Source: Gemmatimonadales bacterium
GTDB lineage: Bacteria > Gemmatimonadota > Gemmatimonadetes > Gemmatimonadales > GWC2-71-9
Assembly (NCBI GenBank): GCA_036279355.1
Contig: DASUJH010000028.1
Location: forward strand, 1-45,576
DNA: 45,576 nt
Direction of reading: 5' to 3'
Shown one piece after another: positions 16,605 to 22,774 of this stretch (position 1 is the first letter of the stretch; the number at the start of each line of letters is the position of its first letter). The position numbers were made by a program, and so were the translations under genes. Under the pieces are notes generated by a model. That model had not been told where the DNA came from, ran no database searches, and saw only the letters and a list, made by a program, of their open reading frames with translations.

Positions 16605-17852
16605 ATGCGCCTGCATCCCTTCCGCGCCCTTCGGCCGACCCCCGCGCTGGCGGCGCAGGTGGCGGCCGTCCCCTACGACGTGGTAAGTCGGGCGGAGGCG
16701 GCGGCGCTCGCCGAAGGAAATCCCCGCAGCTTTCTGCACGTCGGCCGGTCGGACATCGATCTTCCGCCCGACACCGATCCGCACGATGCGCGGGTCTATG
16801 CGGCGGCTCGCGAGGCGCTCGATCGATTCGCCGCCGAGGGCGTGCTGGTGCGCGACGCGGCGCCGGCGCTTTTCGTGTATCGGCAGGTGATGGACGGACG
16901 CGCGCAGACCGGCATCGTGGGTTGCGTTCACATCGACGACTACGAGCGCGACGTGATCCGGAAGCACGAGCGCACCCGGAAGGACAAGGAGGACGACCGC
17001 ACCCGGCACGTGCTCACACTCAACGCGAACGCGGAGCCGGTCTTCCTGACCTATCGGCCGGTGCCCGAGATCGCGGCGCTCATGCGCACGGCCACCACGG
17101 GCGCGCCGCTCTACGACTTCGCCGCGCCCGACGGCGTGCGGCACACGGTCTGGCGGGTGGCCGATCCGGCGCCCTGGGTGCGGGAATTCGCCCGGGTGCC
17201 GCTCGCCTACGTGGCCGATGGGCATCACCGCTCGGCCAGCGCGTGGCGCGCCGGGCGGGAGCGCCGCGCCGCCGATGTGCGCGCGAGCGGTGGGGCCCCC
17301 GGCTCCGAAAGCGCCGCCGAGTACGAGTGGTTTCTCGCCGCGCTCTTTCCCTCGGACGAGCTGCGCATTCTGCCGTACAATCGCCTGGTGCGCGACCTCA
17401 ACGGGCTCTCGCCCGACGCGTTCCGGGGCCGCCTGCGGGCGCTCGGCCAGCTCGCGCCCGCCGAGAGCCCGGAGCCCGGCGCGCCCGGCAGCTTCTGCTT
17501 TTTCTTCGACGGCCGGTGGGAGCGGCTCACGCTCGATCCGAAGTCCATCGATCGCGCCGATCCGATCGCCTCACTCGACGTGAGCCTCCTGCAGGACCGC
17601 GTACTCGGGCCGATCCTCGGCATCACCGACCCGCGCACCGATCCGCGCATTGATTTCGTCGGCGGCATCCGGGGGACGGCGGAGCTCGAGCACCGGGTCC
17701 GCTCGGGCGAGATGGCCCTCGCGGTTTCGTCCCTTGCTACGACGCTCGAGCAGCTCATGGCCGTGGCCGACGCGGGTGCCGTCATGCCGCCCAAGAGCAC
17801 CTGGTTCGAGCCCAAGCTGCGCAGCGGGCTCTTCGTGCACGAACTCGGCTGA
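16605..17852 (+). CDS. DUF1015-family protein, first gene of serine operon
   Basis: A 415-residue member of DUF1015. Conserved pieces are 'PYDVVSRAEAAALAEGNPRSFLHV' at 23-46, 'RKHERTRKDKEDDRTRHV' at 119-136, and 'VADGHHRSASAWR' at 203-215. The DGHHR loop resembles the nucleotide-binding motif of the ParB/sulfiredoxin fold, the fold of the archaeal ADP-dependent serine kinase SerK and of the free serine kinase SbnI; that link is inference. It lies 15 nt before serA, which is followed by serC, while no phosphoserine phosphatase (serB) is in the cluster. A role in serine or phosphoserine metabolism is therefore plausible but unproven. The start ATG is fixed by a promoter whose predicted transcription start coincides with it. 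Confidence 0.88.
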   Translation: MRLHPFRALRPTPALAAQVAAVPYDVVSRAEAAALAEGNPRSFLHVGRSDIDLPPDTDPHDARVYAAAREALDRFAAEGVLVRDAAPALFVYRQVMDGRAQTGIVGCVHIDDYERDVIRKHERTRKDKEDDRTRHVLTLNANAEPVFLTYRPVPEIAALMRTATTGAPLYDFAAPDGVRHTVWRVADPAPWVREFARVPLAYVADGHHRSASAWRAGRERRAADVRASGGAPGSESAAEYEWFLAALFPSDELRILPYNRLVRDLNGLSPDAFRGRLRALGQLAPAESPEPGAPGSFCFFFDGRWERLTLDPKSIDRADPIASLDVSLLQDRVLGPILGITDPRTDPRIDFVGGIRGTAELEHRVRSGEMALAVSSLATTLEQLMAVADAGAVMPPKSTWFEPKLRSGLFVHELG

Positions 17853-17867
17853 TCTCACAAGGAGACC

Positions 17868-19085
17868 ATGAAAGTCCTCATCGCGGACAAGTTCGAGCGG
17901 GTCGGTATCGACGGATTGAAGGAGCTTGGCTGCACCGTGATTTCGGCGCCCGACCTCACGGCCGAGACGCTGCCCGCCGCGCTCAAGGAGCACGATCCGC
18001 AGATCCTGATCGTCCGGAGCACCAAGGTGACGAGCCAGGCCCTCAAGAGCGGTGCGAGCCTCAGCCTCGTGATCCGCGCCGGCGCGGGCATCGACACGAT
18101 CGACGTGGCCGCGGCGAGCGAGCTCGGCGTGTTCGTCTCGAATTGCCCGGGGAAGAACTCGGTGGCGGTCGCGGAGCTGGTGCTCGGCCTGCTGCTTGCC
18201 TGCGACCGCCGGATTCCCGACCAGGTGGCCGACCTGCGCGCGGGCCGGTGGAACAAGGCGGAATACTCGAAGTCACGGGGCCTGCACGGGCGGACGCTGG
18301 GGGTCGTGGGGCTGGGCCAGATCGGCCGCGAGATCGCGGCGCGCGCCCAGGCGTTCGGGATGCACGTCGCCGCGTGGTCCCGCCATCTCACGCTGGCCGA
18401 GGCCGAGCGGCTGGGCGTGCGTTACTGCCAGACGCCGCTCGAGGTGGCACGCGTGAGCGACGCGGTCTCGATCAACGTCGCCGCCAATGCCGACACCCGC
18501 AATCTGGTCAACGAGGAATTTCTCGGCGCAATGCGGCCCGGCGCCTACCTCATCAACACCTCACGCGGGAGCGTGGTGGACGAGGCGGCGCTGGCGGAGG
18601 CCGTCCGCAGCAAGGGCATCCGCGCGGGTCTCGACGTCTTCCAGAACGAGCCGGCCGGCGGCGCCGGGACGTTCGGCGGCGCCCTCGTGCGGGAGCCGGG
18701 CGTCTACGGGACGCACCACGTCGGGGCCTCGACCGAGCAAGCGCAGGTGGCCATCGCGCACGAGGTGCTCCGCATCGTGGAGGAATTTCTGGAGTCGGGC
18801 AGCGTCCCGAACTGCGTCAACCGGCTGGCGAAGAGCGCCGCGAGCCATATCCTGGCCGTGCGGCACCGGAATCGTCCCGGCGTCCTTGCCGACGTTTTCC
18901 GCCTCCTGGCCGACCGGGCGATCAACGTCGAGGAAGTCGAGAACATCATCTATCACGGTGCCCAAGCCACCTGCGCCCGCATCCACCTCGATGGCCGGCC
19001 GGACCGCGCCGCGCTCGAGGCCATCCGCAAGGGCAACGAGCATATCATTAGCGTGGAGCTGACCGAAATCGACGGCCGGAAATAG
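17868..19085 (+). CDS. serA: D-3-phosphoglycerate dehydrogenase with ACT domain
   Basis: 405 residues; oxidises 3-phosphoglycerate to 3-phosphohydroxypyruvate, the first step of serine synthesis. An AAGGAG site lies just before ATG 17868. Domains: substrate-binding lobes at 1-100 and after 290; NAD Rossmann domain with 'GVVGLGQIG' (148-153 GxGxxG), '[14 protein letters not shown]' (catalytic Arg region), and 'THHVGAST' with the catalytic His. A C-terminal ACT domain starts near residue 330 ('[28 protein letters not shown]') and would sense serine. This is the short type, without the intervening ASB domain of the about 530-residue form. It sits between DUF1015 and serC. Confidence 0.95.
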
Positions 19086-19117
19086 CCGCCGCGCCTCACC
19101 TCTCATCCCGGACGACC

Positions 19118-20221
19118 ATGAGCGACCGCATCTACAACTTCAGCGCCGGTCCCGCCATTCTGCCCGAGCCGGTGCTCCGGCAGGCGCAGCAGGATCTCTG
19201 GGACATCGGCGACAGCGGGATCGGCATCGCGGAACACAGCCACCGCGGCAAGGTGTTCGAGCGGGTGCTCGCGGAGGCAGAGCAGAACTGCCGCGACCTG
19301 GCCGGCATTCCCGACGGCTACAAGGTGCTCTTCGTGCAGGGCGGCGCCTCGCTCCAGTTCTCCATGGTGCCGATGAATCTGCTGCCGAAGGGGGCGACGG
19401 CCGACTATCTGGTGACCGGCGTCTGGTCGGAAAAGGCGGTGAAGGAGGCCAAGCGCATCGGCACGGTGCACGCCGCGGCGTCGAGCGAGGACCAGAACTT
19501 CTGCTACATCCCCTCGGCTGAACAGATCCGGTGGTCGGCCGGTCCGGCGTACGCGCACATCACGACGAACAACACGATCTACGGGACCGAGTGGGGGAGC
19601 GAGCCCGAGGTGCCGGCGGGTGTTCCGCTCGTGGCCGACACCTCGAGCGACATGTTCAGCCGACCGATCGACGTGGCAAAGTACGGTCTGATCTACGCGG
19701 GCGCGCAGAAGAACCTGGGGCCGGCGGGCGTGGTGCTCGTGATCGCGCGGGACAACGTGATCGAAGCGGGGGCCAAGGAGCTGCCGACGATGCTCCAGTA
19801 CCGCACGTACGCGGCCAACGACTCGATGTACAACACGCCGCCGACGTTCGCGATTTACGTCATGGCGCTTGTCTTCAAGTGGATCCGCGAGATGGGCGGG
19901 CTCCGCGCGATGGCGGAGCACAATGCCGAGAAGGCGAAGATCCTGTACGACTATCTCGACGTGAGCGAGTTCTTCCGCGGCACCGCTCGGCCCGACAGCC
20001 GGTCTCTCATGAACGTCTGCTTCCGCGCGCCGACCGAGGATCTCGAAGCCCGGTTCGTCACCGAGGCGGCCAAGCGCGGCATGGACGGGCTCAAGGGCCA
20101 CCGCTCGGTGGGCGGCATGCGGGCGAGCATCTACAACGCGTTCCCCAAGCAGGGCGTCTCGGCGCTGGTCAACTTCATGAAGGAGTTCGAGCGCGCCAAT
20201 CGGAGCGCCGTGACGGCGTAG
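19118..20221 (+). CDS. serC: Phosphoserine aminotransferase
   Basis: A 367-residue class-V aminotransferase that converts 3-phosphohydroxypyruvate and glutamate to O-phosphoserine with PLP. Diagnostic: '[23 protein letters not shown]' at the N-terminus, '[15 protein letters not shown]', '[17 protein letters not shown]', '[13 protein letters not shown]', '[16 protein letters not shown]', and the PLP lysine K198 in '[10 protein letters not shown]'. It ends with '[26 protein letters not shown]'. It follows serA by 32 nt with only a weak ribosome binding site. Its product needs dephosphorylation to serine, yet no serB is adjacent. Confidence 0.96.
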
Positions 20222-20415: not shown

Positions 20416-21774
20416 ATGACCGATGTCGCCCCGTTGATCGAGCATTCCACGCGTCCCGCATCCGAGCCCTCGACGCCCGCTTCGCTTGCCGCGGCGCTCG
20501 CGGCCGAGCTGGCCCCGGCGCGCGCGCATACGCTGGAGCTCGTGGCGCCGCTCTCCACGGCGGACCTTCACGAGCAGCACGATCCGCTCATGAGCCCGAT
20601 CATCTGGGACCTGGGCCACATCGCGCACTTCGAGGAGCTGTGGCTCACGCGGAACCTGGACGGCCCGATCGAGTTCGTCGAGATGCCGGGCCTCTACAAT
20701 CCCTTCGAGCACCCGCGCCGAGAGCGTGGCACGCTCGCATTGCCTGGCCTCGCCGAGGTGCGCCGCGCGATGGAGGCGATCCGCGGCCGCGTGCTCGAGC
20801 GTCTGGCGCGGGCGGACTTCTCGCGCGGACCGGCGCTGCTCACCGGCGGTTATGTCTACCGCATGGTCTTGCAGCACGAGTACCAGCACTGCGAGACGAT
20901 TCTCCAGACGTTGCAATTGAAGCGCGGCGCGCCCTACGCGCCGGCCTCCCGCTGCCGGCTGCCTGCGGGATCGCCGCCCGCCCCGGAGGGCGCAATGGTG
21001 CGCGTGCCCGGCGGCGAAATCGCGATCGGCACCGACGACCATACTGCGGCATACGACAACGAACGCCCGCGCCATCCGGTGGCGCTCGAGCCCTACTGGA
21101 TGGACGTGACGCCGGTGACCAACGGCGCCTACCTCGCGTTCATCGACGCCGGCGGCTACCGGCGGCGCGAATGGTGGAGCGACGCGGGTTGGCGCTGGCT
21201 CACCGGCGCCGCCGTGTCCGCCCCGAAGCACTGGGAAAGCTCCCACGGCGAGTGGACCACGCGCACCATGGATCTGGTGCGGCCGCTCGACCCCGCACGT
21301 CCCGTCTGTCACGTGTCGTATTGGGAGGCCGAGGCCTACGCGCGCTTTGCCGGGAAGCGGCTCCCCACGGAATCGGAATGGGAGGCCGCGGCGGCGTGGG
21401 ATCCCGCCTCCGGCACCGTGCGCCCGTATCCCTGGGGTGACGAGCCGCCGACGCCCGAGCACGCCAACCTGGGCCAGCGCGCGTTCGACACCGCGCCGGT
21501 GGGCGCGTACCCGCGCGGTCGGTCGGCCGTCGGCTGCTACGGTATGCTGGGCGACGTGTGGGAGTGGACCTCGAGCGACTTTACCGGCTACCCCGGTTTC
21601 GCGAGCTGGCCATATCGCGAATACTCGGAGGTCTTCTTCGGCGGCGAGTACAAGGTGCTGCGCGGCGGTTCGTGGGCAACGCAGCCCGGCGCCGTCCGCA
21701 ACACCTTCCGCAACTGGGACTATCCCATTCGCCGCCAGATCTTCAGCGGCTTCCGGTGCGCCCGCGATGCGTAA
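20416..21774 (+). CDS. egtB: Ergothioneine biosynthesis sulfoxide synthase
   Basis: A 452-residue non-heme iron enzyme joining trimethylhistidine (hercynine) to a cysteine-containing thiol with O2. It has an N-terminal DinB-like bundle and a C-terminal FGE-sulfatase domain. Iron ligands are visible as His68 in 'WDLGHIAHFEE' and His154/His158 in 'HEYQHCE'. FGE-type motifs include 'YWMDVTPVTNGAYLAFIDAGGY', 'PVCHVSYWEAEAYARFAGKRLPTESEWEAAA' and 'VLRGGSWATQPGAVRNTFRNW'. The frame is open much further upstream through serC, but ATG 20416 starts the family-like sequence. The stop overlaps egtD. Whether the donor is gamma-glutamylcysteine (mycobacterial type) or free cysteine cannot be decided from motifs; an egtA homolog in the operon suggests the former. 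Confidence 0.93.
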   Translation: MTDVAPLIEHSTRPASEPSTPASLAAALAAELAPARAHTLELVAPLSTADLHEQHDPLMSPIIWDLGHIAHFEELWLTRNLDGPIEFVEMPGLYNPFEHPRRERGTLALPGLAEVRRAMEAIRGRVLERLARADFSRGPALLTGGYVYRMVLQHEYQHCETILQTLQLKRGAPYAPASRCRLPAGSPPAPEGAMVRVPGGEIAIGTDDHTAAYDNERPRHPVALEPYWMDVTPVTNGAYLAFIDAGGYRRREWWSDAGWRWLTGAAVSAPKHWESSHGEWTTRTMDLVRPLDPARPVCHVSYWEAEAYARFAGKRLPTESEWEAAAAWDPASGTVRPYPWGDEPPTPEHANLGQRAFDTAPVGAYPRGRSAVGCYGMLGDVWEWTSSDFTGYPGFASWPYREYSEVFFGGEYKVLRGGSWATQPGAVRNTFRNWDYPIRRQIFSGFRCARDA

Positions 21775-22774
21775 TCCGCGCGTGAGTGGCGCCATGCCGA
21801 TCGGCGCGGCGGCGAGCGTCGCGACCGCCGCGGTCGCGCGGACTGGCAATCCGCGCATGCTGGCCGAGGTGGCCGCCGGCCTTGCCTCGCCGCAGAAGGA
21901 GCTGCCGCCGAAATACTTCTACGATCACCGCGGCTCCGAGCTGTTCGAGGAGATCACCCGCCTGCCCGAGTACTATCTCACCCGGGCCGAGCGCGCGTTG
22001 CTCGAGAGCTGGATGCCGCGCCTCGTCCCGGCGCTCGGCACCCGCACCCTCATCGAGCTCGGCGCGGGCGGCGCGGAGAAGAGCCGGGTCATTCTCGACG
22101 CCATGCGCGCGGCCGGCACGGCCGATCGCTACGTGCCGATCGATGTGAGCGCAGCATTTCTCCGGGAGACCGCCGCGGAGCTCCGGCGCGAATACCCCCA
22201 CCTCGCCGTCTCGCCCGCCGTGTCCGACATCGCCGAGGAATTGAACTTGCCGCGGGACATCGCGAGCCCGGCGCTCTTTGCGTTTCTCGGCAGCACGATC
22301 GGCAACTTCTACCCTCCTGCCGCCATCCGGCTGCTCGCGCGGGTGCGCGCGGCGCTCGGACCCTGCGACCGATTCCTCATGGGGGCCGACCTGCGCAAGA
22401 GCCCTACCGTGATCGAGGCGGCCTACAACGATGCGCGCGGCGTCACGGCCGAGTTCAACCGCAACATGCTCCGGGTGCTGAATCGTGAGCTCGGCGCCGA
22501 TTTCGACCTCGACGCCTTCGAACATCGCGCGTTCTACGATGACGAGGCGCACCGGATCGAGATGCACCTCGTGTCGATCCGGACTCAGACGGTGCGCGTG
22601 CCGGGGGTCGGTGAGGTGCGGTTTGCGCGAGGAGAGACGTTGCGCACCGAGATCAGTTGCAAGTACGACATCCCGAGCATTGCGGCGCTCTTCAATGCGG
22701 CCGGCTTGAGGCTCGAGACCTGGCGCACCGACGCCGGACGCCGGTTCGCGCTCGTTGTGGGGGCGCCCGCGTGA
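21767..22774 (+). CDS. egtD: L-histidine N-alpha-methyltransferase
   Basis: About 335 residues (start ATG 21767, 8 nt inside egtB; ATG 21794 is a possible later start). It trimethylates histidine to hercynine with SAM. Family features: 'ASPQKELPPKYFYDHRGSELFEEITRLPEYYLTRAE', the SAM loop 'LIELGAGGAEKSRVILDAM', 'YVPIDVSAAFLRETA', 'FLGSTIGNFYPPAA', 'GADLRKSPTVIEAAYND', 'EFNRNMLRVLNRELGADFD', and 'AHRIEMHLVS'. The first 20 or so residues are Ala-rich and probably disordered. It shares a GTGA stop/start with egtA, so translation is coupled. Confidence 0.94.
   Translation: MRNPRVSGAMPIGAAASVATAAVARTGNPRMLAEVAAGLASPQKELPPKYFYDHRGSELFEEITRLPEYYLTRAERALLESWMPRLVPALGTRTLIELGAGGAEKSRVILDAMRAAGTADRYVPIDVSAAFLRETAAELRREYPHLAVSPAVSDIAEELNLPRDIASPALFAFLGSTIGNFYPPAAIRLLARVRAALGPCDRFLMGADLRKSPTVIEAAYNDARGVTAEFNRNMLRVLNRELGADFDLDAFEHRAFYDDEAHRIEMHLVSIRTQTVRVPGVGEVRFARGETLRTEISCKYDIPSIAALFNAAGLRLETWRTDAGRRFALVVGAPA

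Follow-up and report, generated by a model that had tools for sequence, protein, structure and literature searches.

The DUF1015 protein encoded directly upstream of serA and serC in the window (the whole stretch of DNA analyzed here, 45,576 nucleotides from a Gemmatimonadales bacterium) is a strong candidate for the enzyme that serine biosynthesis lacks here, because it has the fold and the active-site motifs of SerK and SbnI and because members of its widespread family are encoded together with serA and serC in many bacteria without SerB, this one included. The protein probably is a distant homolog of SerK that takes over the SerB reaction, the dephosphorylation of phosphoserine to serine; that it acts on or binds serine or phosphoserine in some way is highly likely. 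The substrate, the direction of the reaction, the phosphate acceptor and the roles of the catalytic residues are given below as we infer them.

The DUF1015-serA-serC unit

The unit consists of three genes:

16605..17852, forward strand: DUF1015 (PF06245) protein, 415 amino acids, type A (Pfam E 1.2e-96; model pLDDT 96.5; SerK Z 12.8, SbnI Z 11.9)
17868..19085, forward strand: serA, D-3-phosphoglycerate dehydrogenase with a C-terminal ACT domain (Pfam, NCBIfam)
19118..20221, forward strand: serC, phosphoserine aminotransferase (NCBIfam, TIGR01364 above the cut-off)

The first protein scores 323.9 bits with the PF06245 model (cut-off 25.8 bits; profile positions 1–325), and SerA carries the pair of 2-Hacid_dh domains, NAD-binding and catalytic, in addition to the ACT domain. 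The preliminary description had placed DUF1015 15 nt from serA, with serC following; these coordinates are exact, the gaps being 15 nt between DUF1015 and serA, with AAGGAG just 5' of the serA ATG, and 32 nt between serA and serC. The unit is also conserved: all three genes stand together in nine of ten genomes of the same family, and in the tenth only serA is missing from between the other two. The flanking genes, an oxidoreductase gene upstream and egtB and egtD downstream, are not kept beside the serine genes in the same ten relatives. Since DUF1015, serA and serC are the only genes that remain adjacent, their grouping is not due to chance. No RNA elements were found in the window, and no promoter-like sites between 16300 and 20800.

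The egtB and egtD genes (ergothioneine biosynthesis, both above the NCBIfam cut-offs) lie at 20416-22774, directly 3' of serC. At locus L139 (genome G034) serC comes directly after DUF1015, serA being missing from between them.

Search for a known phosphoserine phosphatase

The whole genome (3.25 Mb, 97.5% complete), which has a single copy of DUF1015, was searched for known phosphoserine phosphatases, and none was found above the family thresholds. The best TIGR00338 (serB) scores in the genome were 19 bits and came from fragments of large frames only; there was no TIGR02137 (ThrH) match at E 1e-5, and neither of the two His_Phos_1 proteins encoded in the genome (L018 and L019) came near the cut-off for the PspA-type metal-independent enzyme (iPSP). 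The lack of serB, which the preliminary description had reported for the operon, thus extends to the genome.

Both histidine phosphatases were ruled out on family scores. L018 scores 78.9 versus the PspA cut-off of 350; its nearest family is MSMEG_4193, and it has Phe at the His position of the EIDHG motif of H. thermophilus PspA. Three small HAD-IA proteins, L010, L011 and L012, were rejected on the same grounds, as their best matches are to the PpaX/phosphoglycolate, phosphonatase-like and beta-phosphoglucomutase types, respectively. The DUF1015 protein itself has neither a HAD domain with DxDST..EGI[DE] nor a PF00300 histidine phosphatase match, PF06245 being its sole Pfam match. A moonlighting phosphatase, not recognizable from sequence, could still be encoded in the genome.

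Fold and conserved motifs of DUF1015

The ColabFold model of the protein, built from 81 type-A sequences (the window protein and 80 from named genomes), has a mean pLDDT of 96.5 and a pTM of 0.92. Foldseek found nine PDB matches at E <= 0.001, every one of them SerK or SbnI. In VIA-align 2 comparisons the Z-scores were 11.2–12.8 for SerK, the best match covering 217 of 240 residues, and 10.9–11.9 for SbnI; taken together, 209–222 of 232–254 residues of this fold are covered (Z 10.9–12.8). No other structure reaches Z 4, the next one being a ParB N-domain at Z 3.3; other folds appeared at background level in the structure searches. The SerK-like region spans approximately residues 88–415 in most alignment rows, with residues 1–87 forming an N-terminal extension. 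The TM-scores are modest (0.32–0.38 by query length), which indicates distant homology with insertions and not near identity.

At the sequence level, phmmer and hmmsearch runs with DUF1015 against PDB sequences, the ordinary means of finding a homolog, did not find SerK. As the two are connected only by hhalign and by the fold, we classify DUF1015 as a distant homolog and not as SerK. On the SerK side hhalign used the PDB sequences 1VK1 and 5X0B; the P. furiosus SerK sequence agrees with 1VK1 over its full length apart from two positions. The comparison gave 59.5% (E 9e-5) with the 81 type-A sequences and 89.1% (E 2.2e-6) with 13 mixed sequences, and the maxima for 200 column-shuffled SerK profiles were 24.4 and 20.5, versus 39.4 and 49.8 for the real ones. 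The alignment pairs DGHHR with DGHHR and PPKST with SPKTT. Approximately 35 residues of DUF1015 are invariant across phyla, and the main motifs of the window protein are the following:

16671..16679, forward strand: P23-Y24-D25 (P and D in 81 of 81 type-A and 13 of 13 mixed sequences; Y in 80 and 12)
16965..16970, forward strand: H121-E122 (invariant in 81 of 81 type-A and 13 of 13 mixed sequences)
17217..17231, forward strand: D205-G-H-H-R209, phosphate-binding loop of the ParB/SerK fold (invariant; aligned by hhalign to SerK DGHHR 69-73)
17787..17816, forward strand: P395-P-K-S-T-W-F-E-P-K404, C-terminal motif (aligned by hhalign to SerK SPKTT 219-223)

The three motifs of SerK and SbnI, HE, DGHHR and PK[ST]T, are all invariant in DUF1015; within the C-terminal motif the invariant residues are K397, T399, F401, P403 and K404. 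E122 is the proposed counterpart of the catalytic Glu30 of SerK, going by the motif, the order of motifs and the aligned ranges; Glu30 lies within KPHE, as read from the PDB sequences of the wild type, E30Q and E30A. P23-Y24-D25 may correspond to PKYDIP near the N-terminus of SerK, a match made only by eye. Around the HE motif, type A follows the pattern K-H-E-x-T-R-x-x-K-E-x-D-R with few exceptions, and type B follows P-H-E-x-T-H-x-x-x-K-x-D-R; the window protein belongs to type A. The DGHHR loop noticed earlier was thus located at residues 205–209, and the ParB-like fold of SerK and SbnI, to which it had been likened, was borne out by the model, to which no further solved structure came close.

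Distribution of DUF1015 and SerB

Among 121 genomes of the phylum, DUF1015 was found in 46 and a serB-like match at E 1e-10 in 45, with an overlap of four. The SerB signature DxD[ST]T..EG, looked for in every serB-like match, is present in 38 of the 121 genomes, none of them among the 46 with DUF1015 (Fisher p 1e-10 for exclusion, with ancestry ignored). Families f1, f2, f4 and f5 each include genomes of both kinds, but no genome combines the two. The four overlapping genomes, all of family f9, have ThrH in place of SerB; the ThrH family has known phosphoserine activity, and the exclusion is therefore strict for SerB and not for every phosphatase. The weak serB matches of this family proved to be ThrH and a fusion of a glycosyltransferase with a HAD protein. 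The apparent fusion of a glycosyltransferase-like protein with a HAD phosphatase, L049 (genome G005), reaches 115 bits against the serB model and lacks the SerB signature.

It counts against the exclusion argument that 37 of the 75 phylum genomes without DUF1015 do not have the SerB signature either. None of 50 genomes from other phyla with type-A DUF1015 has SerB above the cut-off, nine having weak matches without the signature. Among the named controls, Bacteroides ihuae and Methanosarcina acetivorans have matches to the DUF1015 as well as the serB family, and Thermotoga maritima has a DUF1015 match and no serB match at E 1e-10. The anti-correlation was not seen in 299 genomes of a clostridial phylum, where SerB is nearly absent: 100 genomes of this sample have serC, and 67 of these have DUF1015, three have a SerB-like HAD protein of at least 80 bits and 31 have neither.

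Gene neighborhoods across phyla

In 38 of 80 type-A loci from Planctomycetes, Verrucomicrobia, Acidobacteria, clostridia, Spirochaetes, Bacteroidetes, Thermotogae and others, serA and/or serC lie at most 1.5 kb from DUF1015, in varying orders. The order DUF1015-serA-serC was also observed in Phycisphaerae, Acidobacteriota and Anaerolineae, and the order serC-serA-DUF1015 in clostridia. The serC_1 gene is present in 13 of the 121 phylum genomes, and 11 of these 13 are exactly the 11 type-A genomes; since the three genes seem to travel together as a cassette, linkage in addition to function lies behind this count.

Type B accounts for the other 35 of the 46 DUF1015 genomes of the phylum (for example, L145-L170); these genes are mostly away from serA and serC, yet the genomes lack the SerB signature. 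No pattern was found in the neighbors of type-B genes. The exception in location is family f9, where type-B DUF1015 adjoins serA (L141-L144, genomes G001, G003, G005 and G007). The same four genomes encode ThrH, and DUF1015 can therefore coexist with a known phosphoserine phosphatase.

Relation to known systems

SerK converts serine and ADP to phosphoserine and AMP, and its gene can adjoin serA in archaea (PMC5120207). DUF1015 shares with SerK (TK0378, PDB 5X0B-5X0K; P. furiosus, 1VK1) the fold over nearly all of SerK, the DGHHR, PK[ST]T and HE motifs and, for SerK in some archaea, the linkage to serA. It differs from SerK in its length of approximately 415 amino acids, the N-terminal extension, the insertions, additional invariant basic residues after HE, its occurrence in many bacterial phyla and an identity of only ~15% across the aligned residues. 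SbnI, the serine kinase of staphyloferrin B synthesis (PDB 5UJE, 6NR6), is the second-best fold match (Z 11.9), but its context is siderophore synthesis, whereas that of DUF1015 is serine biosynthesis. The reaction proposed for DUF1015 would be that of SerB and ThrH, HAD proteins of an unrelated fold, of which SerB never occurs together with DUF1015 in the phylum, while ThrH does in four genomes. It would equally be the reaction of the PspA-type histidine phosphatases (iPSP), an unrelated family with no member above the cut-off in this genome.

A 2025 survey lists "DU1015" among the domains occurring with the ParB-CTPase fold (PMC12704722). We found no function for DUF1015 (COG4198, PF06245), and no link of it to SerK or serine synthesis, in the open-access literature; the family itself is already known. 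SerA and SerC without any of four phosphatase types have been described in 450 gut genomes (PMC9026213), Roseburia and many Firmicutes likewise lack a known phosphoserine phosphatase (PMC7478625), and genetics failed to reveal the Desulfovibrio enzyme (PMC5764234). Genomes without a recognized phosphatase risk being labelled serine auxotrophs. If our reading is true, DUF1015 fills this published gap, a large family obtains a function, and the SerK fold extends to a widespread bacterial enzyme.

Proposed reaction and alternative explanations

In the proposed reaction, the SerK-type pocket of DUF1015 would take up the phosphoserine made by SerA and SerC; DGHHR and the conserved lysine of PK[ST]T would hold its phosphate, and E122 would play the part of SerK Glu30, acting on the oxygen of the serine. 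The most likely phosphate acceptor would be water, making the protein a phosphatase on the SerK scaffold. Hydrolysis of a phosphomonoester yields far less energy than hydrolysis of ADP or ATP, and a nucleotide-linked kinase running in reverse is unfavorable in the cell by roughly 18 kJ/mol; water is the simplest acceptor and phosphate, which forms pyrophosphate, is borderline. Simple dephosphorylation is preferred because a reverse kinase regenerating the nucleotide is thermodynamically unlikely in the biosynthetic direction. The earlier suggestion that DUF1015 interconverts serine and phosphoserine using ADP/ATP, or senses phosphoserine, stands in part: the link to phosphoserine is well supported, since the genome has no serB, thrH or iPSP and the SerK/SbnI fold is predicted, while the ADP/ATP chemistry is unlikely for biosynthesis. 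It is improbable that DUF1015 is a further, independent class of enzyme conserving the phosphoryl group (phosphoserine + Pi -> serine + PPi, or transfer to a nucleotide); here the kinase fold would work in the biosynthetic direction and the acceptor would be bound by the conserved basic cluster that follows HE.

SerK and SbnI make phosphoserine, the reverse of the reaction that we propose. As the main alternative, DUF1015 could be a true free serine kinase (using ADP, ATP or PPi) that routes serine into 3-phosphoglycerate with SerC and SerA running in reverse, or provides phosphoserine for cysteine synthesis; we consider this unlikely. The forward kinase reaction is thermodynamically easy, the fold and the catalytic-site motifs are common to two kinases, and SerB would be absent because it would create a futile cycle. 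Moreover, serK adjoins serA and an aminotransferase gene in some Desulfurococcales, which its discoverers read as serine assimilation (PMC5120207). However, a kinase would leave no route from phosphoserine to serine although serA and serC are kept, and the host of SerK itself has serB (PMC5120207). A further argument comes from clostridia, where a T-box leader lies directly 5' of aminotransferase-serA-DUF1015 in L065, L072 and L092 and directly 5' of serA-DUF1015 in L120. The specifier in these four leaders, read by eye, is UCC with a purine as the next base. A UCC T-box for serine is among those predicted in clostridia, and serA of Paenibacillus is induced through a serine T-box upon serine starvation (PMC8002221). 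Because serine-type T-box leaders switch genes on at serine shortage, their presence before four serA-DUF1015 operons argues for synthesis and has the wrong sign for assimilation. No T-box was detected at most of the scanned clostridial loci, or in four further Clostridium loci with lax thresholds.

It is also quite unlikely that the phosphatase is another unrecognized or moonlighting protein, such as one of the HAD-IA proteins L010-L012 or the histidine phosphatase L018, with DUF1015 having some other role in serine metabolism. The genome does encode three small HAD proteins and one PspA-like histidine phosphatase, and YsaA of B. subtilis, a HAD protein, has phosphoserine phosphatase activity according to the passage of PMC8002221 that cites it; yet none of these four candidates lies inside the serine operon, and their family scores point to other types or, for L018, fall far short of the cut-off. 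The least probable reading makes DUF1015 a non-catalytic sensor of phosphoserine or serine, or a scaffold, that regulates SerA and SerC. ParB-fold proteins can serve as ligand-binding switches, and SbnI is also a transcriptional regulator, going by the title of its PDB entry, but DUF1015 has no DNA-binding domain in Pfam scans, its catalytic-type Glu is conserved across phyla along with the other invariant positions, and the pathway would stay open.

Riboswitches were observed near some members of the family. COG4198, which corresponds to the DUF1015 family, was reported behind glycine riboswitches in a metagenome survey (PMC2211319). At the clostridial locus L121 DUF1015 has a glycine riboswitch (2771-2867) ~3 kb to its 5' side, in front of a different gene, and at the clostridial locus L087 a THF riboswitch (1979-2075) lies just downstream of DUF1015.
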